The notes beneath the pieces are model-generated. The model saw nothing but the letters and a program-made list of their open reading frames with translations. It was not told where the DNA came from and searched no databases. A DNA stretch of 64,000 nt, from positions 310,001 to 374,000 of the forward strand of contig NZ_RBIQ01000007.1 of the NCBI RefSeq assembly GCF_003634105.1. The letters run 5' to 3'. Within the stretch, counting starts at the first letter, position 1. Every line of letters starts with the position of its first letter. Both the position numbers and the translations under genes were made by a program. Shown here one piece after another: positions 7,700 to 63,464 of the stretch. The stretch is from Maribacter vaceletii (GTDB lineage Bacteria; Bacteroidota; Bacteroidia; Flavobacteriales; Flavobacteriaceae).

Positions 7700-8404
7700 A
7701 TGATACTATCTGCCTTATTATTAGGACTCATGGGAAGTTTGCACTGCGTAGGCATGTGCGGACCCATTGCATTTATGCTCCCGGTAGATAGAGAAAGTAA
7801 TATTAAAAAATTTACGCAAATTTTTATTTACCATTTTGGAAGATTAGTAGCCTATTCTATTATGGGTTTATTATTTGGTTTATTAGGTAAAAGCTTACAA
7901 GTATTTGGTCTACAACAAAAGCTCTCCATTATTATTGGTGTGGTAATGATATTGGTAATTCTTATTCCCTACAAAACGTTTAATAAATACAATTTTTCCA
8001 AGCCCATTTACAAAGTAATCAGCAAAGTTAAATCGCAACTAGGTAAAGAATTACAAAAAAAAACTCCAGACACTTTTTTAACTATAGGTTTTTTAAATGG
8101 CTTTCTCCCATGCGGATTAGTATATATGGCATTATTTGGAGCCATTGCCATGGCAAACATTTGGGAAGGTTCTTTGTATATGCTGCTTTTTGGAATTGGG
8201 ACTATTCCTTTAATGACAACCGCAATTTATTTTAGTAATTTATTAAAAGGCGTTACTAGGCAAAAGGTGCAAAAATTAATTCCAGCTTTTGTAATTATAA
8301 TTGGAGTTCTATTTATTTTAAGAGGATTAGGGCTTGGCATACCTTATATTTCTCCAAAACCAGTTACCGAAATTGTTTCTGCAAAAATGGAATGCCATAA
8401 TTAA
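7700..8404 (+). CDS. SafE/TauE-like (UreH-domain) membrane protein of the cbb3 cluster
   Basis: Polytopic protein of 234 aa with about six helices and two internal cysteine motifs, LHCVGMCGP near the N-terminus and FLPCGLVY in the middle, typical of the 'sulfite exporter TauE/SafE' or UreH_2/DsbD-like transmembrane family. Members beside ccoG and fixH are thought to help metal or redox handling for the oxidase; sulfite export is unlikely. It starts 4 bp after fixH, so it is probably translationally coupled. Confidence 0.82.
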   Translation: MILSALLLGLMGSLHCVGMCGPIAFMLPVDRESNIKKFTQIFIYHFGRLVAYSIMGLLFGLLGKSLQVFGLQQKLSIIIGVVMILVILIPYKTFNKYNFSKPIYKVISKVKSQLGKELQKKTPDTFLTIGFLNGFLPCGLVYMALFGAIAMANIWEGSLYMLLFGIGTIPLMTTAIYFSNLLKGVTRQKVQKLIPAFVIIIGVLFILRGLGLGIPYISPKPVTEIVSAKMECHN

Positions 8405-8431
8405 CTATCTTACCATTATATTAGATAGCTT

Positions 8432-8830
8432 ATGACCCAAAAGCAAGATATTCAAGATAGAAACGATGTAAAAATCCTTGTGCATACTTTTTATGATAAA
8501 ATAAGAGCCCACGAAACTTTGGGCCCAATTTTTAACGCCATTATTAAAGATTGGGATACCCATTTAGATTTATTGACAGACTTTTGGGAAACCCAACTCT
8601 TTTTAAAGCGCAAATACTACGGAAACCCTGTTACAGCACACCAAGAAGTAGATATTAAGACTAATGGCACAATTACCTCAGAGCATTTTGGGCTTTGGTT
8701 AAACACCTGGTTTGCGACTATAGATGATTTGTTTGATGGCGAAACCGCCTGGATTGCAAAAAATAGAGCGCAAAAAATGTCTACTATGTTATTTATGAAA
8801 ATGTTTGAGAGTAGAGGAATTCGCAAATAA
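8432..8830 (+). CDS. Group III truncated haemoglobin
   Basis: A 132-aa globin of the 2-on-2 class. The proximal histidine is in TSEHFGLWL and the N-terminal VHTFYDKIR block matches the group III profile. It is the last gene of the cbb3 operon, 27 bp after the SafE-like gene, so it is probably expressed when oxygen is scarce. Roles proposed for the group include oxygen or NO handling; here NO protection of the oxidase is an inference from position. Confidence 0.88.
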   Translation: MTQKQDIQDRNDVKILVHTFYDKIRAHETLGPIFNAIIKDWDTHLDLLTDFWETQLFLKRKYYGNPVTAHQEVDIKTNGTITSEHFGLWLNTWFATIDDLFDGETAWIAKNRAQKMSTMLFMKMFESRGIRK

Positions 8831-8866
8831 TATTATACCACAACAAGAATTTATTAAAGTAGTGTT

Positions 8867-9565
8867 TTACTCCAATTCCTTAATCAATTTTATATTATAG
8901 CATTCTATTTCTGTTAAAAAAACACTTACTTCCTTATGCTCTGCTCTATACCAATTTTGCTTTTTAAAATATTTATCCATCTTTCCATTCTTAATAAAAA
9001 TATATCCGTATCGAGCATATATTTCATTTCTCATTATAATTAGCTCTTGAGTATTTATTTTTTTTAGTTCATCCTTTGTTAGTTTCCTATAGGATGTTTC
9101 TCCATACTTTCCGTAAAAAATATCATCAAATGCAAGTTCTATCTTTGTTCCAATTTCAAAATCACTAGCATCAATCCAACTTGCCCAAGGATTATCAATC
9201 TTTAATGCTTTATAATATTCTCCTTTTTTGGTTTTATATGTAACAAATTGCCCTGAATGCTGATCACTCGTAAAATGTCCTACTTTATCAATTTTTATAT
9301 TAGTTAGGGTTATGTATTTACTCTTTCTATCTCCTGTTTTTTCCTCCCAATACCCGCTCCTTACTTGTCCAGTTATAGAACCTTCTGAAAAGAACAAATA
9401 AAAATCAGATTCGCTCTCGCTTTCTCCAAAATGATAAACCCCAGCGTATTCAGTTTCAAATTTTGGCACCCATTTAGAAAAATCAGACTCATTAACCTCT
9501 TGCCCACCCATATATTGAGCAAAAACAAAGTTTGTTACACTTAAAAAAAGTAATAGTATTCTCAT
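8867..9565 (-). CDS. Exported YARHG-domain protein
   Basis: A 232-aa secreted protein. An N-terminal signal peptide ends near VFAQ. The C-terminal third carries the YARHG-type motif (MRNEIYARYGYIF) found in exported bacterial proteins, preceded by a beta-rich region with repeated aromatic residues. Molecular function is unknown. It is convergent with the cbb3 operon and has no obvious operon partner. Confidence 0.75.
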   Translation of the reverse strand: MRILLLFLSVTNFVFAQYMGGQEVNESDFSKWVPKFETEYAGVYHFGESESESDFYLFFSEGSITGQVRSGYWEEKTGDRKSKYITLTNIKIDKVGHFTSDQHSGQFVTYKTKKGEYYKALKIDNPWASWIDASDFEIGTKIELAFDDIFYGKYGETSYRKLTKDELKKINTQELIIMRNEIYARYGYIFIKNGKMDKYFKKQNWYRAEHKEVSVFLTEIECYNIKLIKELE

Positions 9566-9766
9566 ATTGTAATTTTAAAAAAATAGTATAACATATTAAA
9601 TATAATTAGTACCTAAAAAATTTACCTGGCATTATTTAATTAAAGTATCTAATTAGATTACTTAAATAATCATACAAAAAAACTGTATAAACTCTTCACT
9701 ATAACAGCAAACTACGGTATTAATTATAGGTTGCATTATTTTCTACATACAAACACTTTTAAACAA

Positions 9767-10591
9767 CTATTCTTTCTTAATAAAACCTTGTTCCTTAAAC
9801 GCAATACTTTTTAACTTTAGATATTCCCAAATCTCTTCTGTGTTAGTTGCTTTTGATAATTCTGAAAAGTCTGTTTGGGATAAACAAAATGTAAGAAATC
9901 CATCAATTTTTTCTTCAGGAATTTTAAAACTTTCAGACATTGTTTTCTTTGAAAACTTGGCAATTATTTCTTTTTCTATCTCCATATTTTTATCTCGAGC
10001 TACCATCCCTTTCATTCTATCTGTTCTTCCAGATAACTTATTCAGTATTTTATGTGTATTTATAGTTAGTGCTATTACATAAAAACGCATATACTTACCC
10101 CTATCTGCCTCTATTAGAAGTCGTTCACTTTGAGACATTTTTTCGACATCTGCATTAGGCAATCCTAATACAGAAGAAGTAACGCTAGGTGCAATAGCTA
10201 ACCTTTCAATGTCTAAGTCTATCTTACCGGTTAAATTATAAGGGGTTACTGTAACTTCGTTTAAATTTATTACGTTGTCTACAAGATCCACTACAAGTAA
10301 TTTTTCTAGAAAAATTTTACTGGTAATACTAATTTCTTTTGTTTGGTATTGAACTGCCGTAAAACGAAGCGAGTCCTTTAATTTTACTTCAATAGTAAAC
10401 TGCCCTAAAGAATCTGTGATTGTCGATTTTTTTGAGTTTTTATTTACAATGAGCACAAATAAAACATCATTACTTATGCTTTGTACTTTTCCGTTTAATT
10501 TTATTGTTTTTTCTTGGCCAAAACAAGAACTTAGGGTAAAAACAAAATATAAAAAGATGCAAAATTCAAAAGTTTTTTTTGGTGTTAACAT
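9767..10591 (-). CDS. Carboxypeptidase-like regulatory domain protein, probable lipoprotein
   Basis: A 274-aa exported protein. The N-terminus is hydrophobic with a lipobox-like LSSC. Residues of about 30-115 form a CarboxypepD_reg-like beta-sandwich (KLNGKVQ..., TDSLGQFTIEV, VQYQTKEISI), which is common at the N-terminus of Bacteroidota surface proteins. The remaining half is helical and not recognised. It is not attached to a TonB receptor here. Function unknown. Confidence 0.7.
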   Translation of the reverse strand: MLTPKKTFEFCIFLYFVFTLSSCFGQEKTIKLNGKVQSISNDVLFVLIVNKNSKKSTITDSLGQFTIEVKLKDSLRFTAVQYQTKEISITSKIFLEKLLVVDLVDNVINLNEVTVTPYNLTGKIDLDIERLAIAPSVTSSVLGLPNADVEKMSQSERLLIEADRGKYMRFYVIALTINTHKILNKLSGRTDRMKGMVARDKNMEIEKEIIAKFSKKTMSESFKIPEEKIDGFLTFCLSQTDFSELSKATNTEEIWEYLKLKSIAFKEQGFIKKE

Positions 10592-22400: not shown

Positions 22401-22422
22401 TAAAATTACGTATAAATACGTA
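22401..22422 (-). promoter_or_regulatory. nasA promoter: TACGTA dyad joined to a -7-like element
   Basis: TACGTA-TAAA-TACGTA occupies 22407-22422. On the minus strand its gene-proximal TA begins a -7-like element TAATTTTA (22408-22401). The same layout occurs at narK and nirB. Confidence 0.7.
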
Positions 22423-42342: not shown

Positions 42343-43020
42343 TTAGATACTAGTTAAATTATAATCTTGTGCTTTTTTAGAAAGTTCCATTAAATTTTTA
42401 ACTTCCATTTTACGCATTAAATTAAACCTGTGGGTTTCTACAGTACGTTTACTATTTTGTAATTTTTCTGATATTTCTTTATTCGTTAATCCAGATAAAA
42501 CTAACTCTAGTACTTTTAATTCTTTATTGGTAAGATTAAAAGGAGTTTCTTTTTCTGTCTCTTTACTAACCTCTTCAGGAGTTTCCTTAGAAGGGTTTAA
42601 TAAATTATTTACCAACACATTAGATATTGCTCCGCTAAAATACTTACCTCCCTCTCTAACGGTATGTATAGCTTTTATAAATTCTGTTTTACCAGTATCT
42701 TTTAATAAATACCCATTAGCACCTGCACTAACAGATTTTAGAATATATTCTTCCGAATCGTGCATTGAAAGTATAATGGTTTTAACCGCTACATTTTGTT
42801 TATTTAAAAGTGCAACAGCATCTATACCATTTAAAACAGGCATACGTATATCTATGATTAAAATTTCTGGTTTTTTATCTTTAACCATTGCTATAGCTTC
42901 TTGCCCATTAGAAGCCTCCCCAATAACCACTAAGTCCTGTTCACTTTCTAATAACGCTCTAATACCGTCTCTTACTAAAGAATGATCATCTGCTAGAACT
43001 ATGCTTGTAGTTGTACTCAT
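42343..43020 (-). CDS. NarL/FixJ family response regulator
   Basis: A 225-aa two-component regulator. The receiver has ADDHSLVRDG, phospho-acceptor in IIDIRMPVLNG, SMHDSEEY and the lysine of YLLKDTG; the C-terminus is a LuxR-type helix-turn-helix (LTNKELKVLELVLSGLTNKEIS...RTVETHR). It lies close to the nitrate transporter genes and is a candidate partner for the NarX-like kinase at 59641-61470. Its promoter has a TACGTA between -33 and -7. Confidence 0.9.
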   Translation of the reverse strand: MSTTTSIVLADDHSLVRDGIRALLESEQDLVVIGEASNGQEAIAMVKDKKPEILIIDIRMPVLNGIDAVALLNKQNVAVKTIILSMHDSEEYILKSVSAGANGYLLKDTGKTEFIKAIHTVREGGKYFSGAISNVLVNNLLNPSKETPEEVSKETEKETPFNLTNKELKVLELVLSGLTNKEISEKLQNSKRTVETHRFNLMRKMEVKNLMELSKKAQDYNLTSI

Positions 43021-43039
43021 AAAATATTCAAATTTCTAC

Positions 43040-43066
43040 AAATATAATTTAAAATACGTAGTACAA
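43040..43066 (-). promoter_or_regulatory. Promoter of the NarL-like regulator
   Basis: On the minus strand a -33 TTG (43066-43064) is separated by 16 bp from TATATTTG (43047-43040). A single TACGTA (43055-43060) lies between them; no second half-site is clear. Confidence 0.5.
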
Positions 43067-48719: not shown

Positions 48720-48756
48720 TACGTATTAATACTTATTTAAGGCAAATATATACGTA
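48720..48756 (-). promoter_or_regulatory. nrtA promoter with TACGTA dyad and extra half-site
   Basis: TACGTA-TTAA-TACTTA lies at 48720-48735 and a third TACGTA at 48751-48756, which on the minus strand abuts a -7 element TATATTTG (48750-48743). No -33 TTG is at the expected distance. Confidence 0.68.
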
Positions 48757-52590: not shown

Positions 52591-52620
52591 AAAAATTACG
52601 TATTTACGTATTTTTACTTA
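52591..52620 (-). promoter_or_regulatory. Globin operon promoter with three TACGTA-type half-sites
   Basis: Half-sites occur at 52597-52602 (TACGTA), 52605-52610 (TACGTA) and 52615-52620 (TACTTA). The outer two form the 6-N4-6 dyad; the first overlaps a -7-like TAATTTTT (minus strand, 52598-52591). Confidence 0.68.
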
Positions 52621-52733
52621 GACAAATTTAAAGACCGAAACTTAAATCTTGTATGATTAAAGGCAGAAGAAAATATTTATTATTTCATAAACAACAATGT
52701 TTTTTACTCTTATTTAATATGATTTTAATACAT

Positions 52734-52807: not shown

Positions 52808-53560
52808 CTATGTATCCAAATAGAAATTGTGTTCCGATATTTCTCTTTTGAGAACTTTTACATCTGGAATGCCTATACGCTTTCCTTTTGCTATTACTAA
52901 ATTTTCCTTTTTTAAAACTGAAAGAATACGTATTACTTGTTCTTCTGTTGTACCTGCATAATCTGCGTATTCTTTTCTACTTAATTGCAGGTTTATATAA
53001 CCATTAAGTTGTCCAAATTTTCTATTAACATAGAGAAGTGTATCTATTACTCTTTCCCTAACTGTCATTTGAGATATTGATTTTACTTTGGCCTCACTCT
53101 TATTAAGCTCATTTGCATAAAAAAGCATTAAATCATAGGTAAAACTCGCATCTTCCTTTAAAGCATGTTGTAACAAATTTTTAGAAAAATAACATAAAGT
53201 AGTGTTTTCTAAGGCTATTGCAGAAATGGAATAATACTCTTCTGTGCCAAAACCTCTGTGACCAATTATTTCTCCTTCTTTTGCAAAACGTACTATTTGT
53301 TCCCTGCCATTAATACCTGTTCTAAAAACTTTTACTTTTCCTTTTAATATAAAAAACAGTCCATTTACAGGTGCTCCTTCCATAATAAACTGTTGTCCTT
53401 TTTTACAGTTTATATCTGTTTTTTCATAAGAGAAGTCTAAAACTAATTTAGATGTAATGTTTTTTTTCATCAAACACTTTACATTTTCACACGTATTACA
53501 AGAAATACCAGACATGGATTTTTTTCTCATTTTTTGTATGTTTTCTATGTTTGATTGCAT
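52808..53560 (-). CDS. FNR-like Crp/Fnr family regulator with [4Fe-4S] cysteines
   Basis: A 250-aa regulator. Cysteines C21, C24, C29 and C122 correspond closely to the four cluster ligands of E. coli FNR (C20, C23, C29, C122), so it is probably an oxygen sensor. A cyclic-nucleotide-binding fold is followed by a helix-turn-helix; the recognition helix reads TTEEQVIRILSVL, keeping the Glu and Arg that read the TGA core but with Ile where FNR has Ser212. It lies 40 bp after narK and probably shares its promoter. Confidence 0.88.
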   Translation of the reverse strand: MQSNIENIQKMRKKSMSGISCNTCENVKCLMKKNITSKLVLDFSYEKTDINCKKGQQFIMEGAPVNGLFFILKGKVKVFRTGINGREQIVRFAKEGEIIGHRGFGTEEYYSISAIALENTTLCYFSKNLLQHALKEDASFTYDLMLFYANELNKSEAKVKSISQMTVRERVIDTLLYVNRKFGQLNGYINLQLSRKEYADYAGTTEEQVIRILSVLKKENLVIAKGKRIGIPDVKVLKREISEHNFYLDT

Positions 53561-53600
53561 ATCTATTGCTTTAAATTACCAATGCGCTACTATTAAACCA

Positions 53601-54992
53601 TTATTTATCTGCCTTTAAAACCAATTCTGGAGTCTCTGCTGCTACAGGAGCAAACTTAATAGTCAATGCTAATATTCCTGCAAGAACAACAAAACCTCCA
53701 ATTATAAAATAACCGCTAGAAACCGCTGATGCTGATGCCGCCATTTGTGCAGTTTTAACTGCCTGTTCTCCAAGTTGAGAATTGGAAGCTATTGCAGCAC
53801 TTTCTGCTACTGCCGATTTAGACTTTAAAAGCATAGCTGCAACAAAAGCACCTACATTACCTCCTGCGCCTACAATTCCTGAAATAGAACCTATTGCTTT
53901 TTTATTTATAAAAGGAACTACTGAAAATGTTGCGCCTTCTGCCATTTGTACACTTAAACTAAAGGCTATTAAAAATCCCATACCCACTACTAAACTAGTT
54001 GCTGTAGAAAAAGTAGTAAGAACAATACCCTCTATTGCGAGAATTACAGCCAAGAAAATTACACGACCTCTTAATCCTTTGAGCCTTCCGAACATATCTC
54101 CAAAATACCCTCCTAAGGTTCTTGCAAAAATGTTCATTAATGCAAAAGACAGAACTAAATTTCCTGCGAAACTTCTACTTAACCCAAATCTATTTTGCAA
54201 ATAATCGTCCATGGTACCATAAACGGTAAGCTCCATACCAAAACAAGCCGCATATATTAAAAAAAGTATCCAAACTCTATAATCTTTTAAAACCTCTAAA
54301 AACCCTATTTCGTCTTTTTTACTTGTAGGTAACTCTCCTCTTTCTTTTAGTTCTTTAAAGTTTCCTTCTGGTGTATCTTGCGTAAAAAAGAAATATACAA
54401 TTCCCATTATAAAACATGTAATACCTGCAATAATCATAGAATACCTCCAAGCATTTTCTGCTTCAGCAATTCCTAAACTCACTACCGCAGCAGCAATAAT
54501 TGGCATTCCTAATCTATTAGCACCGCCACCAAGATTACCCCATCCTGCAGAAGTTGCATTTGCAGTACCAACAATATTTGATGCAAACATTATTGAGGTA
54601 TGTACTTGCGTAATTACAAAGGAAGCTCCAATGAAACCTATAAACAACCTGCATATTAAAAATTGTTCTGGCGTTTGCACAAACCCTATTAATATAACAG
54701 GCAAAGCCCCAATCATTAACATCCAGGTATAACACAAGCGTGGTCCATATTTATCACATAATTTACCAATAGCTAATCTTGCAAATACAGTCCCAGAAAC
54801 CGCAAGAATAATAGAGTTCCATTTTTGTTCCGGCGTTAAACCTAAATCCTTAACAACATCTGGCATAAAAGGCACTATACCAAACCATGAAAAGAAGCAT
54901 AAGAAGAATGCAATAGAGGTTATCCAAAATGTTCTTGTAGAAATACTTTTAAAATTAAGTAACTGTAGTTTTGTTGCTTTTTTAGAATCCAT
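53601..54992 (-). CDS. narK: Nitrate/nitrite MFS transporter NarK
   Basis: A 463-aa, 12-helix MFS protein. The nitrate signature region AGWGNLGGGANRLGMP and the second half motif GIVGAGGNVGAF are diagnostic of the NarK/NNP family. ATG 54992 (MDSKKATK) is chosen over a TTG at 55034, which would lie in the promoter. A TACGTA-type dyad is 45 bp upstream. It probably imports nitrate or exchanges nitrate for nitrite. Confidence 0.93.
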   Translation of the reverse strand: MDSKKATKLQLLNFKSISTRTFWITSIAFFLCFFSWFGIVPFMPDVVKDLGLTPEQKWNSIILAVSGTVFARLAIGKLCDKYGPRLCYTWMLMIGALPVILIGFVQTPEQFLICRLFIGFIGASFVITQVHTSIMFASNIVGTANATSAGWGNLGGGANRLGMPIIAAAVVSLGIAEAENAWRYSMIIAGITCFIMGIVYFFFTQDTPEGNFKELKERGELPTSKKDEIGFLEVLKDYRVWILFLIYAACFGMELTVYGTMDDYLQNRFGLSRSFAGNLVLSFALMNIFARTLGGYFGDMFGRLKGLRGRVIFLAVILAIEGIVLTTFSTATSLVVGMGFLIAFSLSVQMAEGATFSVVPFINKKAIGSISGIVGAGGNVGAFVAAMLLKSKSAVAESAAIASNSQLGEQAVKTAQMAASASAVSSGYFIIGGFVVLAGILALTIKFAPVAAETPELVLKADK

Positions 54993-55031: not shown

Positions 55032-55053
55032 CAAAACTACGTATTTATACTTA
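55032..55053 (-). promoter_or_regulatory. narK promoter: dyad joined to a perfect -7 element
   Basis: On the minus strand TAAGTA-TAAA-TACGTA (55053-55038) runs into a perfect -7 element TAGTTTTG (55039-55032), sharing its TA. There is no -33 TTG at the normal distance. Confidence 0.75.
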
Positions 55054-55973: not shown

Positions 55974-55985
55974 CAAAACTACGTG
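55974..55985 (-). promoter_or_regulatory. cobA promoter: half-site joined to a -7 element
   Basis: The minus strand reads CACGTAGTTTTG, that is a TACGTA-like half-site sharing its TA with the perfect -7 element TAGTTTTG, as at narK. The distal half-site is degenerate. Confidence 0.55.
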
Positions 55986-56012
55986 TTTATTTTGATAAAA
56001 TTATATAAAAAA

Positions 56013-56034
56013 TACGTAATTATACGTATTTTTG
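56013..56034 (+). promoter_or_regulatory. nirB promoter: perfect dyad joined to a -7 element
   Basis: TACGTA-ATTA-TACGTA (56013-56028; extended arms AAATACGTA/TACGTATTT) shares its final TA with the -7 element TATTTTTG (56027-56034). It lies between divergent cobA and nirB. Confidence 0.78.
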
Positions 56035-56059
56035 TAATGTAATATCTAAACAAGTACGT

Positions 56060-58576
56060 ATGAAAACTATAATAGTAGTTGGAAATGGGATGGTTGGTTA
56101 TAAGTTTTGTGAAAAATTTGTTGCCAAAAAAGAAAGCAAAGAATATAAGGTTATAGTTTTTGGTGAAGAACCAAGACCTGCTTACGACCGTGTTCATTTA
56201 AGTGAGTTTTTTGAAAATCAAGATGCAAAAGCTTTAGAAATGGCTCCTGCTGAATGGTATGCAGAAAATAACATAGATTTAATTGTAGATGAACGTGTTA
56301 CAGATATACACAAGGCCTCTAAAAAAATTACTACTGCAAAAGACCGTGAGTTATCTTACGACTATTTAGTTTTAGCTACTGGTTCTTCTGCTTTTGTACC
56401 TCCTATTAAAGGGGTAGAAAAAGAAGGGGTTTTTGTATATAGAACTATTGAAGATTTAGAAGGTATGCTTGCTTATGCCGCCAAACTAAAACAAACTAAT
56501 CCTAATGCAAAAGCGGCTGTACTTGGTGGCGGATTGTTAGGTTTAGAGGCAGGAAAAGCTGTAATGGATATGGGACTAGAACCACATATTGTTGAATTTG
56601 CACCTAAATTAATGCCAAGACAATTAGATTCTAGAAGTAGCCAGGTATTACAACTTAAACTAGAATCTATAGGGTTAAACATACATTTAAGTAAAGCTAC
56701 CAATCAAATTTTAGGAGATAAAGCTATTACAGGAATGGAGTTTGGAGAAGACGATGTTTTAGACGTAGAAATGCTTATTATATCTGCTGGTATTAGACCA
56801 AGAGATGAACTTGCTAAAACAAGCGGCTTAGAAATGGGCGTACGTGGCGGTATTGTTGTAGATAATAAAATGCAAACCTCTGATCCTAATATTTATGCTA
56901 TTGGAGAAATTGCTCTTTATAACCAAATGATATATGGTTTAGTTGCTCCAGGTTATGATATGGCAGGGGTAGCTGTTGACCAAATATTAGGAGATACAGA
57001 AACCTTAATGCCAGAAGAAATAGACATGTCTACCAAATTAAAATTAATTGGGGTAGATGTTGCTAGTTTTGGAGAACCTTTTATGCCTGCAGCAAAAGGG
57101 CATTCTATAATTTTTGAAAATAAAACCCAACATTTATATAAAAGAATAAACGTTAGCCTTGATGGAAAAAAGCTATTAGGTGGTATTCTAGTTGGTGATG
57201 CTACAGATTATAGCATGTTACACCAAATTTATTTAAACGGAATGGCCATTCCTGAAGACCCTGCACAATTAATTTTACCTGCTGGTGAAGGTGGTGGTTC
57301 TTTTGGTGATGTTATGGATTTACCAGATGAAGCACAAATATGTTCTTGTGAAAATGTTACAAAGGGACAAATTTGCGGGACTATTGAAAGTGGAGAGTCT
57401 AAAGATTTAGCAGATGTGGTTAGCTGTACCAAAGCAGGTACCGGTTGCGGCGGTTGTAAACCAATGGTAAAAGACCTTACGGAAGCTACCTTAAAATCTT
57501 TAGGTATAGAAGTTAAAGATACCGTTTGCGAACACTTTGATTTAAACAGACAGGATTTATATAAAATCATTCAAGTAAAAGGGTATAAAACTTTTGATGA
57601 AGTTCTTGATAATCACGGTAACGGTGGTCATGGTTGTGAGTTATGCAAACCAGTTGTAGCGTCTTTAATGGCTAGTATAAATGCAGATACTGCTAATAAA
57701 GAATATGCCATACAAGATTCTAACGATAGGTTCTTAGCCAACATTCAACGTAATGGAACCTATTCTGTTGTTCCTCGTGTTCCAGGTGGAGAAATTACAC
57801 CAGATAAGCTAATTGCACTAGGAGAAATTGCTAAGAAATATGATTTATATACAAAAGTAACTGGTGGTGTTCGTATCGATTTATTTGGTGCAACTCTAAA
57901 CCAATTACCATTAATCTGGAAAGATTTAATAGACCACGGTTTTGAAAGTGGACATGCCTACGGAAAATCTTTACGTACAGTAAAAACTTGTGTGGGTTCT
58001 ACTTGGTGTCGTTACGGTATGGATGAAAGTGTAAGTTTTGGTATTGAACTAGAAAATAGATATCGAGGAATACGTGCACCTCACAAAATTAAAGGTGGCG
58101 TATCTGGTTGTATTCGTGAATGTGCCGAAGCTCGTGGTAAAGATTTTGGTTTAATTGCTGTAGAAGGTGGTTGGAACTTATATCTTGGCGGTAATGGTGG
58201 CGCTACACCAAGACATGCTGAGTTATTTGCAGAGCAAATAGATAATAAAACGGTAATTAAATACATAGACCGTTACTTAATGTTATACATGCGTACCGCA
58301 AAACCTTTACAAAGAACAGCAGCGTGGCAAGAACGTTTAGAAGGTGGTCTTGAGTATTTAAAAGAAGTAATTATTGATGATAAATTAGGAATCGCAGAAG
58401 ATTTAGAAAATGAAATGCAAACGCTAGTTAATAAGTTTGAGTGCGAATGGACACAAGCTATTAATGACCCAGAAATGATGAAACGTTTTAACCACTTTGT
58501 AAATAGCGAAGAGGAAGATGATAACTTAGTTTTTGTACCATTAAGAGAACAAAAAATGCCAGAAAAATGGGTCTAA
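56060..58576 (+). CDS. nirB: NADH-dependent assimilatory nitrite reductase, large subunit
   Basis: An 838-aa cytoplasmic enzyme reducing nitrite to ammonium. N-terminal FAD/NAD domain (VVGNGMVGYKF, VLGGGLLGLEAG), two BFD-like 2Fe-2S segments (CSCENVTKG...GCGGCKP; GGHGCELCKP), a ferredoxin-like half-domain, then the 4Fe-4S/siroheme ligands CVGSTWC near residue 646 and CIRECAEA near 685. It leads the operon nirB-nirD-DUF4202-kinase-sirC-DUF7009. Confidence 0.96.
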   Translation: MKTIIVVGNGMVGYKFCEKFVAKKESKEYKVIVFGEEPRPAYDRVHLSEFFENQDAKALEMAPAEWYAENNIDLIVDERVTDIHKASKKITTAKDRELSYDYLVLATGSSAFVPPIKGVEKEGVFVYRTIEDLEGMLAYAAKLKQTNPNAKAAVLGGGLLGLEAGKAVMDMGLEPHIVEFAPKLMPRQLDSRSSQVLQLKLESIGLNIHLSKATNQILGDKAITGMEFGEDDVLDVEMLIISAGIRPRDELAKTSGLEMGVRGGIVVDNKMQTSDPNIYAIGEIALYNQMIYGLVAPGYDMAGVAVDQILGDTETLMPEEIDMSTKLKLIGVDVASFGEPFMPAAKGHSIIFENKTQHLYKRINVSLDGKKLLGGILVGDATDYSMLHQIYLNGMAIPEDPAQLILPAGEGGGSFGDVMDLPDEAQICSCENVTKGQICGTIESGESKDLADVVSCTKAGTGCGGCKPMVKDLTEATLKSLGIEVKDTVCEHFDLNRQDLYKIIQVKGYKTFDEVLDNHGNGGHGCELCKPVVASLMASINADTANKEYAIQDSNDRFLANIQRNGTYSVVPRVPGGEITPDKLIALGEIAKKYDLYTKVTGGVRIDLFGATLNQLPLIWKDLIDHGFESGHAYGKSLRTVKTCVGSTWCRYGMDESVSFGIELENRYRGIRAPHKIKGGVSGCIRECAEARGKDFGLIAVEGGWNLYLGGNGGATPRHAELFAEQIDNKTVIKYIDRYLMLYMRTAKPLQRTAAWQERLEGGLEYLKEVIIDDKLGIAEDLENEMQTLVNKFECEWTQAINDPEMMKRFNHFVNSEEEDDNLVFVPLREQKMPEKWV

Positions 58577-59018: not shown

Positions 59019-59606
59019 ATGGCAACTACAGAAAAATTACAAAAAGCATATTCTTTATTTGATGCTGCAAATGAAAAAGACCCAAATAAAGAAGAATACC
59101 AAGGAAAAACATATGCAAAAGAAGTATTGTACGCTATAAGGATGACAAACAAATTAAATGCGTTTGCACCAAATGCATCAGAAGCATTACAACTTACTGC
59201 ACGTTGCCAACATATTTGCAGATGGGAAATTGCAAGAGATAGCTACGAAATGAATAGAGTTGGTTATCTAAAATGGAGACAAGATTTAAAAAAATATCAT
59301 GCTAAAAAATCTTCAGACATATTAAAAGAAGTGGGCTATGATCAAGAAACCATAAATAAAGTTGCTTTCCTTTTAGAAAAGAAACAACTTAAAAAAAATG
59401 AAGAAACACAAACACTAGAAGATGTAATTTGTTTGGTCTTTTTAGAGTTTTATTTTGAACCTTTTGCAAAAAAATATGAAGAGGATAAACTAATAGATAT
59501 TTTACAAAAAACATGGCGTAAAATGTCTGACGTAGGACACCAAGCTGCTTTAAAACTACCTCTATCAGATTCTTCTTTAGCATTAGTAACAAAAGCACTA
59601 GCTTAA
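59019..59606 (+). CDS. DUF4202 family protein
   Basis: A 195-aa soluble helical protein. Conserved polar features are RCQHICRWEIARDSY, GYLKWRQDLKKYHA and DVICLVFLEFYF, the pattern of DUF4202, often found with nitrate and sulfate assimilation genes. The alternating H/D residues suggest an HD-like metal site, but no activity is known. It is between nirD and the nitrate-sensor-like kinase. Confidence 0.85.
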   Translation: MATTEKLQKAYSLFDAANEKDPNKEEYQGKTYAKEVLYAIRMTNKLNAFAPNASEALQLTARCQHICRWEIARDSYEMNRVGYLKWRQDLKKYHAKKSSDILKEVGYDQETINKVAFLLEKKQLKKNEETQTLEDVICLVFLEFYFEPFAKKYEEDKLIDILQKTWRKMSDVGHQAALKLPLSDSSLALVTKALA

Positions 59607-59640: not shown

Positions 59641-61470
59641 ATGAGCGAAGATAAATTGCAACAACCATTAGATACCGAAACCTTTAATAGGATTCGTAAA
59701 TGGTATTTGCTTGCCTTATCTGCAATAGCACTTACGGTTATTATAGCGCAAATATTAATACAAACAAATATTAATACCCAACTAGACGATTCTAGAATAA
59801 TAAATATTGCAGGTAGGCAACGGGCTTTTAGTCAAAAACTAGTAAAGGAAATACTACTTTTAAAAGAGGTGAAAAAGAAAAGTGAAAAAGACCTAATTAC
59901 TGGAGAAATAAAAACCACCTTATCTAAATGGACTGCTTCTCATAAAGCATTACAATTTGGCGACAAAGAAATGGATATTGTTGTTGAAAACTACAGCCCA
60001 ATTAAAGAACTATTTAAAGATTTAAATCCGCACCATAATGCAATGGTAAGTGCCATTACTAAAATTCTTAAGGCATCTAATACCCCCAACTACCACACTA
60101 CAAAAGAATACCAAGAAAACACATCTATCTTACTAAAAAAAGAAAGAATTTTTCTTAACATAATGGACACTATTGTTAATACGTATGATAAACAAAGTAG
60201 AAAGGAACTTCAAAAATTAAAAAACAAAGAATATCTACTTTTAGCTTTTTCTTTATTGATTCTATTTTTAGAAATGGTTTTTATTTTTAGACCTCTTTCT
60301 ATCCAAATTAGAAATAGTATTTCTAAGTTAATGAAACATAAATTAGTTTCTGATAAAAATGCTTCTCAAATACAAAAACTGTATAATGAGAAAGAAAAGT
60401 CTTTACAGGAGCTTCAAGAATTAAATTTTGTAATTGATAATGCTGCCTTATTTGCAAGTGCTAGAGAAGACGGCAGTATTGTTTTTATTAGCAAAAAATT
60501 TATTGCCCTACTTGGGTGTTCTCATGAAGATTTAAAAAAGCCACTACAAGAGCTCTTAACTACAGATCAAGGGCAACAAAAATATTTAAAAGAAATTTTA
60601 AAAAGCAATAAAAAGAATAGCATAAGAAACGAAGAAATAAAAATTACCACTACTAGTAAAACAATTTGGTTAGACATTTCTATAATTCCTATGTACCAAT
60701 CTAGCAGGCAACAAAGTGTTTTAATTTTATGTTCTGATATTACAGAAAGAAAAAAACACTTAATGCAAGTAGAAAAACTTACTAAAGAAAATTATGAAGA
60801 AAGAATACTTCAGAAAAAAAGACAAGCAAGCCAAATAGTAGAAGGGCAAGAAGAGGAACGTAAACGTATTGCCAAAGATATTCATGATGGCATTGGCCAA
60901 ATGCTAACAGCTTTACGATTTAATATAGAATCAATAGACCTAGAAAATCAAGAAAAAGCGGAAGAAAAAATCATCTATTTAAAAGAATTAACTTCCGACT
61001 TAATAAAAGGAGTACGTACTGCCACTTTTAATTTAACTCCACCAGAATTAAGTGATCATGGTATATTACCTGCATTACAAAAAATGACCACAGAACTTTC
61101 TAGATTAACTGGAAAAAACATTCTTTTTGATAACAAAACTGAAACTAATTTTCGGTTTGACTCTCTAGCAGAAACCAATATTTATAGAGTTACTCAAGAA
61201 GCCATAAATAACGCCATAAAATACGCAGAATCTAACTACATATTACTAACCATAAACTACACAGATAATGTTTTAAGTGTAGTAATAGATGATGATGGCA
61301 AAGGGTTTGATCCTATTATTTTAAAAGAAGCCCCAAAAAATAATAGTGATGGTGGCATGGGCTTATTTTTTATGAAAGAAAGAATAAGTTATATTAATGG
61401 CAGATTGTTTATAAACTCTATTCCAGGAGAAGGTACTAGAGTAACTATAAACTACAAAACAGATAAATAA
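59641..61470 (+). CDS. NarX-like sensor histidine kinase with PilJ-type sensor domain
   Basis: A 609-aa membrane kinase. Two helices (about 24-42 and 202-222) enclose a periplasmic PilJ-type helical domain that starts with SRIINIAGRQRAFSQKLV, closely like the P-box used by NarX/NarQ for nitrate. A PAS domain (about 262-375) follows, then HisKA_3 with the phospho-acceptor in RIAKDIHDGIGQ (about residue 416) and HATPase (DDDGKGFDP, GGMGLFFMKER). No response regulator is adjacent; NarL-like candidates lie at 42343-43020 and 62802-63464. Confidence 0.88.
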   Translation: MSEDKLQQPLDTETFNRIRKWYLLALSAIALTVIIAQILIQTNINTQLDDSRIINIAGRQRAFSQKLVKEILLLKEVKKKSEKDLITGEIKTTLSKWTASHKALQFGDKEMDIVVENYSPIKELFKDLNPHHNAMVSAITKILKASNTPNYHTTKEYQENTSILLKKERIFLNIMDTIVNTYDKQSRKELQKLKNKEYLLLAFSLLILFLEMVFIFRPLSIQIRNSISKLMKHKLVSDKNASQIQKLYNEKEKSLQELQELNFVIDNAALFASAREDGSIVFISKKFIALLGCSHEDLKKPLQELLTTDQGQQKYLKEILKSNKKNSIRNEEIKITTTSKTIWLDISIIPMYQSSRQQSVLILCSDITERKKHLMQVEKLTKENYEERILQKKRQASQIVEGQEEERKRIAKDIHDGIGQMLTALRFNIESIDLENQEKAEEKIIYLKELTSDLIKGVRTATFNLTPPELSDHGILPALQKMTTELSRLTGKNILFDNKTETNFRFDSLAETNIYRVTQEAINNAIKYAESNYILLTINYTDNVLSVVIDDDGKGFDPIILKEAPKNNSDGGMGLFFMKERISYINGRLFINSIPGEGTRVTINYKTDK

Positions 61471-62801: not shown

Positions 62802-63464
62802 TTGAAACTTATAATAAAAATTTTAATGGTCGATGACCATCCAATAATCCTAAAAGGTTATGAATTGTCATTAAATGAATTTAGTGATAATTATATATTT
62901 GAATTTTATAAAGCACAAAATAGTGTAGAGGCTGTAAATTTAATAGAACAAAATGAACCTGATTTTTTTCATATAGTCTTCTTAGATATACGCTTACCTG
63001 TTAATAATGATTATGCTTTAATAAATGGGGAAGATTTAGGAATTAAAATTAGAAAAACAACAAACTCTAAAATTATTGTTTTAAGCTCTATAGGAGATAC
63101 CCAAAGAATATACAGCATTCTAAATAACTTAGAACCAGATGGGTATATTATTAAAACAGAAACAACTCCAGAAATATTACTAGATGCTATTGATGCTGTT
63201 TTGAATGATAGAAACTACTTTTCTAGCAAAATAAAAAAACTAAAAAATGTTCAAAACTCGGAGAACCCTACTCTAGATGTTTATGACATAAAAATTTTAT
63301 ACTTTTTATCGGTAGGCGAAAAAATGAAAAACTTACCAGATTTTGTACACCTTTCTATTGCAAGTATAGAAAGGAGAAAAAAGAAAATAAAGGCATATTT
63401 TGGTAATAAAGAAGCATCAGATAGGCAACTTATTGAAGCTGCTAAAGAAAAAGGGTTTATTTAA
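62802..63464 (+). CDS. Response regulator with LuxR-like output domain
   Basis: A 220-aa regulator. The receiver has MVDDHPIILKG, phospho-acceptor in VFLDIRLPVNN, LSSIGD and the lysine of GYIIKTE. The C-terminus (about 150-220) is a divergent helix-turn-helix (DIKILYFLSVGEKMKNLPDFVHLSIASIERRKKKI, broken by weaker consensus) of the kind common in Bacteroidota orphan regulators. Start is TTG; an ATG eight codons later would remove the first beta strand. No kinase is adjacent. Confidence 0.85.
   Translation: MKLIIKILMVDDHPIILKGYELSLNEFSDNYIFEFYKAQNSVEAVNLIEQNEPDFFHIVFLDIRLPVNNDYALINGEDLGIKIRKTTNSKIIVLSSIGDTQRIYSILNNLEPDGYIIKTETTPEILLDAIDAVLNDRNYFSSKIKKLKNVQNSENPTLDVYDIKILYFLSVGEKMKNLPDFVHLSIASIERRKKKIKAYFGNKEASDRQLIEAAKEKGFI

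Follow-up and report, generated by a model that had tools for sequence, protein, structure and literature searches.

In enterobacteria, the NarXL and NarQP systems act through 7-2-7 sites composed of TACYYMT heptamers, with a pyrimidine at base 4, and in E. coli the NarX and NarQ kinases are switched on by nitrate. Regulators of the MerR type act from the promoter spacer. The DNA sites of FixJ have been described as two SELEX classes (GTAMGTAG and GTAGTTTCCC) and as the fixK site of S. meliloti (TAAGTAATTTCCCTTA) (PMC4999443). In the Bacteroidetes, a kinase/regulator pair is already known from a sequence survey, which named the genes narHK and narRR and described nitrate-sensor kinases devoid of HAMP and GAF domains, some of them with a PAS domain (PMC8199190). 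The passages of that survey concerned with the pair give no operator, and the words “promoter” and “DNA-binding” occur zero times in its main text. In the open literature that was searched we found no described DNA site or regulon for narHK/narRR.

The stretch of DNA analysed here (64,000 nucleotides from Maribacter vaceletii, referred to as the window) contains a pair of this kind. It also carries a short repeat, TA(C/A)GTA-N4-TAC(G/T)TA, which is located on nitrate-gene promoters of this bacterium and its relatives. This dyad is most likely the attachment site of a nitrate-sensing two-component regulator, i.e. of a switch that has so far been uncharacterised. The features of the window are as follows.

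56013..56028, plus strand: operator dyad of nirB, TACGTAATTATACGTA
56027..56034, plus strand: -7 box of nirB, TATTTTTG, its TA common with the dyad (TAnnTTTG at 62 of 78 nirB dyads in the relatives)
55038..55053, minus strand: operator dyad of narK, leading into the -7 box TAGTTTTG at 55032-55039 (27 of 36 narK dyads fused to TAnnTTTG)
22407..22422, minus strand: operator dyad of nasA, leading into the -7-like TAATTTTA at 22401-22408 (18 of 24 nasA dyads fused to TAnnTTTG)
48720..48735, minus strand: operator dyad of nrtA, 3' of the likely transcription start
48743..48756, minus strand: half-site TACGTA of nrtA abutting the -7 box TATATTTG (in 12 of 22, a half-site precedes the dyad by 20-21 bp)
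52605..52620, minus strand: operator dyad of the globin operon (4 globin dyads in the relatives, each with TAnATTTG upstream)
52623-52630, minus strand: likely -7 of the globin operon, TAAATTTG, upstream of the dyad
52597-52602, minus strand: additional half-site of the globin operon
55974..55985, minus strand: degenerate half-site CACGTA of cobA, fused to the -7 box TAGTTTTG
43055..43060, minus strand: lone half-site TACGTA of the response-regulator gene, 14 bp upstream of TATATTTG (43039-43046)
42343..43020, minus strand: narRR, NarL/FixJ-family response regulator, proposed reader of the operator
59641..61470, plus strand: narHK, sensor kinase (PilJ/NarX-type sensor, PAS, HisKA_3 and HATPase in Pfam)
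56060..58576, plus strand: nirB, a target, followed by nirD, DUF4202 and the kinase
53601..54992, minus strand: narK, a target, its start moved to the ATG at 54992
52808..53560, minus strand: FNR-like Crp-family regulator, behind narK

With the NarXL/NarQP systems this locus shares nitrate genes, a NarX/NarQ-type sensor, a NarL-family regulator and the 7-2-7 symmetry (TACGTAT-N2-ATACGTA). It differs from them in base 4 of the heptamer, which is G in the TACGTA halves (all five window sites), in the recognition-helix stretch (TVKVHVK in NarL, TVETHRF in narRR) and in the kinase, for which Pfam detected neither HAMP nor GAF, a PAS domain being present instead. The likeness to FixJ concerns the half-site TAMGTA, the 16-bp imperfect palindrome with halves 10 bp apart (as in the fixK site) and the recognition helix, which in narRR resembles that of FixJ (SPRTVEVHRANVMAKM). 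FixJ, however, responds to a haem kinase that senses oxygen, and its place on the fixK promoter is between -69 and -31 (PMC4999443), whereas here we found a NarX/NarQ-like kinase, nitrate-gene targets and a site in the core promoter. The kinase of the FixLJ system is of the oxygen-sensing haem-PAS type; narHK has a PAS domain of its own, and its N-terminal sensor is PilJ/NarX-like. Among solved structures, the closest by sequence to the whole narRR protein was E. coli NarL (E 1.2e-33; FixJ 2.9e-11), whereas for its DNA-binding domain alone EsrB, SsrB and FixJ came ahead of NarL; a literature search for an EsrB site gave nothing usable. Since the half-site matches FixJ and differs from the NarL heptamer at base 4, we would place the operator with the NarL/FixJ family, nearest to FixJ in its letters, and yet a nitrate-type kinase appears to drive the system. 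The position of the operator between the expected -33 and -7 positions recalls MerR-type regulation, but the protein family is another one, and here the operator takes in the first two bases of the -7 in promoters without a -33.

We confirmed that the dyad is real, non-random and conserved. The preliminary description had placed five 16-bp dyads before nasA, nrtA, the globin operon, narK and nirB, and all of them were found there; each precedes a nitrate gene or the globin operon. The window has 5 copies of the pattern TAMGTA-N4-TACKTA, whereas 200 first-order Markov copies of it averaged 0.05 and none had more than 1. With one mismatch allowed there were still 5, while 100 shuffles gave 1.49 on average, the count of 5 being reached in 2 of them, and the plain TACGTA was seen 27 times against 9.67 expected. 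The dyad is not equally frequent elsewhere in the 3.89 Mb genome, which has 6 copies of the strict form TACGTA-N4-TACKTA, 5 of them in the window (binomial p 7e-9). A palindromic W form was found at 8 sites genome-wide (control pattern, 3), again with 5 in the window. Its 3 other sites (one intragenic, one between convergent genes, and one directly before an ORF read as 5-formyl-THF cyclo-ligase) look like chance or uncertain matches, and a wider regulon in this genome was therefore rejected.

Conservation was assessed in related nirB loci. The NirB search confirmed 402 relatives, and the best 80 loci (1.72 Mb), nearly all labelled as Flavobacteriaceae genera, were used here and in the locus counts that follow; one of them had no upstream DNA, which left 79 for the scan upstream of nirB. 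Within 300 bp upstream of nirB, 78 of these 79 have a site that departs from TACGTA-N4-TACGTA by no more than 2 mismatches. Over the best 80 of the 402 loci, TAMGTA-N4-TACKTA was found 209 times, as opposed to 0-18 times for 13 control patterns (other spacings and rearranged halves), and the enrichment upstream of nitrate genes proposed for the relatives was thereby found. The controls with spacing 5 (18) and 6 (14) exceed the others (0-7) and may include true variants. Named genes follow 199 of the dyads: nirB 78 (a count of sites, not loci), narK 36, the regulator gene 35, nasA 24, nrtA 22 and globin 4. The remainder consists of 7 other dyads and 3 that lie inside narK by the gene ends used.

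To avoid selecting on the motif, we aligned the nirB promoters on the -7 box alone (73 promoters; 6 of the 79 loci had no -7 in range and were left out). In 66 of these 73 both half-sites were present, located at -14 and -4 relative to the TA of this box, and the strongest positions included G at -11 and C at -2. The half-site is followed by G in 43 of 71 nirB promoters. Further half-sites were counted 35 times in 77 nirB promoters at 30-31 bp behind the start of the dyad, near the ATG; in the window, a TACGTA at 56055-56060 overlaps the nirB start codon. Another apparent position, 33 bp ahead of the dyad at nirB (31 of 77), was discarded, since in 17 aligned rows it proved to be the cobA half-site seen from the opposite side. 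The latter had been claimed at 55980-55985, which was correct in part: on the cobA strand it reads CACGTA, with one mismatch, but it is fused to a -7 box. In 12 of 17 aligned promoters (the window and 16 chosen from the 80 loci) it is an intact TACGTA; the mismatch is confined to 5 rows, those of the window and of four Maribacter records.

The fusion of the dyad to the -7 box is a feature of three target genes. It is present in the window at nirB, narK and nasA, as described before, and in the best 80 of the 402 loci 107 of 138 nirB, narK and nasA dyads end in the TA with which TAnnTTTG begins. The statement that the operator is often fused to the -7 therefore holds for most dyads of these genes, but not for those of nrtA (0/22), globin (0/4) and the regulator gene (3/35). 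At nrtA and globin a conserved -7 is located upstream of the dyad, which thus lies downstream of the likely transcription start. The start of narK is most likely the ATG at 54992 rather than the TTG at 55034, which falls within the narK -7 box. In F. psychrophilum the -7 box occupies -12 to -5 from the start, and this placement was used to position the dyads relative to inferred starts (PMC9723704). On this scale the fused dyads would cover about -26 to -11. Those of the regulator gene would lie at about -35 to -20 (of the 33 with a -7, 30 have it 8-11 bp downstream of the dyad), and those of nrtA at about +4 to +19 (in 18 of 22 the TAnnTTTG is 13-17 bp upstream of the dyad start). Extra half-sites 22-24 bp upstream of the dyad occur at narK (22 of 29) and nasA (15 of 24), i.e. 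at about -50 from the start. The reported absence of a -33 TTG was borne out at the fused promoters: none of the 107 has TTG at spacer 19-21, whereas 9 of the 83 TAnnTTTG sites found elsewhere in these loci do (p 4e-4). As a control for ordinary promoters these 83 sites are weak and noisy, TTG peaking only slightly at spacer 20 (6 of 83).

The two proteins of the pair were analysed as well. In Pfam, narRR has a receiver (Response_reg, E 1.1e-26) and a LuxR/GerE DNA-binding domain (GerE, E 6.9e-18), and the sensor of narHK matches PF13675 (E 1.4e-11). Residue R61 of narHK, which we take to correspond to the P-box arginine R50 of NarQ, was invariant in 13 of 13 sequences, and the motif AG[RF]QR was seen in 79 kinase sequences read from relatives. 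The fold match of the sensor sits among common four-helix bundles, and a sequence search with the sensor for a solved NarX or NarQ structure found none. The likeness of the narHK sensor to NarX and NarQ comes from Pfam, a short motif and a match to a common fold. The order of genes in relatives is nirB-nirD-DUF4202-kinase-regulator: in 47 of the best 80 of the 402 loci the narRR gene follows the kinase within 1 kb, in 14 it is found at another place in the fetched span, and in 19 it is not in the span. In the window, unlike in many relatives, the two genes are far apart. The recognition helix, S[KR]RT[VIA]E[TV]HRFN[LM]M[KR]K, is near-constant in these best 80 loci. A second receiver protein (62802-63464) was rejected as the reader, as it is in the span of only 4 of the 80.

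Among 31 genomes (our own and 30 relatives) the kinase was present in 10, and exactly these 10 also have the regulator. In every one of them a dyad lies no more than 5 kb from the kinase gene; a congener without the pair has no dyad. Clusters of dyads were found in 10 of 10 genomes with the kinase versus 2 of 21 without it (Fisher p 1.5e-6). Stray dyads occurred in 8 of the 21 genomes without the pair, including the two with clusters (G012 and G016). Some of these clusters lie beside another NarL-family regulator, and the half-site is therefore not exclusive to narRR; a second regulator family may use the same half-site there. In both cases (L168:1351-1837 in G012 and L169:1698-1713 in G016) TACGTA-N4-TACGTA dyads stand behind the gene of this other regulator, with the helix RTVEKHKS, and precede a convergent gene read as dehydrogenase E2. 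In one of the ten genomes with the kinase (G009:C12:1611285-1612505) the kinase match covers only residues 198-605 of 609, apparently without the PilJ-type sensor.

The association was also seen on the scale of the class. A search of 395 Bacteroidia genomes for NirB (E 1e-150 or better) identified 20, and we used the 19 besides the source, with 13.6-20 kb around nirB per genome (one stretch was shorter, 13.6 kb). The kinase (E 1e-60 or better) was found in 6 of the 19. In these six, the DNA upstream of nitrate and regulator genes (2,880 bp) contains 26 copies of TACGTA and the other 110,325 bp contain 13; the 13 genomes without the kinase have a single copy in 8,406 bp of such upstream DNA and 39 in the rest. 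At least 2 upstream TACGTA were present in 6 of 6 genomes with the kinase versus 0 of 13 without (p 4e-5), and the N4-spaced dyad in 5 of 6 versus 0 of 13 (p 5e-4). Six half-sites precede nirB in the sixth kinase region, whose GC content is 61%, and one pair of them is 11 bp apart (spaced by 5, not 4). In G236, dyads precede the regulator gene and a porin-like gene but not nirB, the promoter of which has single half-sites. In three genomes of one other family (G271, G319 and G416) the kinase matches are diverged and leave out the PAS region, the regulators differ in their recognition helices (SVRTVDNHRANMM, SPNTVANQRASII), and the dyad is absent. Judged from these sequences, the absence of the dyad where the helix is changed would fit the view that the helix of the regulator sets the motif, and the three genomes offer a natural test of specificity. 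Nitrate loci of this description are L151, L152 and L157.

Taken at the level of sequence, it is highly probable that the motif serves as operator in a two-component nitrate switch of the Bacteroidota, running from narHK through narRR to the dyad. The membrane kinase narHK, with its NarX/NarQ/PilJ-type sensor, would phosphorylate narRR, presumably in response to nitrate. A dimer of narRR would then bind directly to TAMGTAW-N2-WTACKTA, a site that is often accompanied by additional half-sites at distances of about 10-12 bp. The regulon would consist of nirB-nirD-kinase, narK-fnr, nasA, nrtABCD, the globin operon and cobA, with operon extents as predicted, as well as narRR's own gene, for which we count the full dyads before it as support for autoregulation. 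The term “nitrate-assimilation operator” of the preliminary description is strongly supported as regards an operator of nitrate genes (209 dyads versus 0-18, and 5 of 6 genomic sites). The reading of the dyad as a 7-2-7 NarL-type site gains support because the co-occurring regulator is of the NarL/FixJ family and has a NarX/NarQ-like kinase, the two being adjacent in many relatives. As to the direction of control, we somewhat favour activation, dependent on the phosphorylated regulator, of promoters without a -33 element over repression. More tentatively, and with a little less than even confidence, we suggest that the spacer-bound NarL/FixJ-family regulator might take the place of the contact that the primary sigma factor of the Bacteroidota makes at -33. 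One half-site would then have bases in common with the -7, and promoters unable to fire alone would be activated, which, if true, would be a new activation geometry for this family.

The opposite direction of control is less likely but is the main alternative, and has several observations in its favour. As a repressor, narRR would occupy the spacer and -7 (nirB, narK, nasA) or the start region (nrtA, globin) and block RNA polymerase, and nitrate would relieve this block, e.g. by switching the kinase to a phosphatase. Activators seldom act from -26 to -11 or from 3' of the start, and the dyad positions alone therefore fit a repressor as well or better. Some promoters also have half-sites on both sides of the -7, and typical dyads extend between about -35 and +19 of starts inferred from the -7 placement in F. 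psychrophilum (PMC9723704). Against this stands the lack of TTG at spacer 19-21 (0/107 versus 9/83), which fits activator-dependent promoters. Moreover, a kinase activated by nitrate, as in E. coli, would under this scheme repress the use of nitrate.

Far less probable is that the dyad is read, as a 5-N4-5 site, by the FNR-like protein (52808-53560), which would couple the nitrate genes to oxygen or redox state. The gene lies behind narK inside the cluster, and the symmetry and N4 spacing of the dyad would suit a Crp/Fnr dimer. However, an orthologue (at least 60% identity) is present in only 8 of the 10 operator genomes, G008 and G018 having matches of just 32-33%, and a match above 50% is in the fetched span of only 20 of the best 80 of the 402 nirB loci (spans only). 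The FNR-like protein therefore cannot be the general reader and was rejected as such, which weakens the Crp/Fnr reading of the preliminary description. It is likely to be a target instead: the gene is directly behind narK on the same strand (52808-54992), and is therefore probably expressed from the narK operator promoter. The special sigma site listed among the earlier alternatives, i.e. TACKTA-NTTTG as an extended -7 recognised with no separate regulator, is more improbable still. The 107 of 138 fused dyads speak in its favour, but the dyad is symmetric, and it also occurs away from the -7 at the regulator gene (30 of 33), nrtA (18 of 22) and globin, while the -7 itself stays an ordinary TAnnTTTG consensus. 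Finally, the half-sites are short and AT-rich and have stray matches in unrelated genomes, as an artefact of chance or of composition in AT-rich intergenic DNA would; this explanation is practically negligible in view of the Markov copies, the genome count, the 80 loci, the -7-aligned promoters and the class-wide sample, which includes the region of 61% GC.

A defined operator with a list of targets makes nitrate control in these marine bacteria directly testable. In uncultured genomes the operator can serve as a marker of the regulon. Its location on the -7 of promoters without a -33 also bears on how a NarL-type factor works with the unusual sigma factor of the Bacteroidota.

As judged from their spacing, nirB, nirD, the DUF4202 gene and the kinase gene probably form one operon. 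The DUF4202 protein (59019-59606) is encoded between nirD and the kinase in the window, and likewise in relatives. In Algibacter-type loci (L016, L018-L021 and others, at about 7770-9950), a gene whose product has 24-25% identity to nasA is located directly upstream of nirB.
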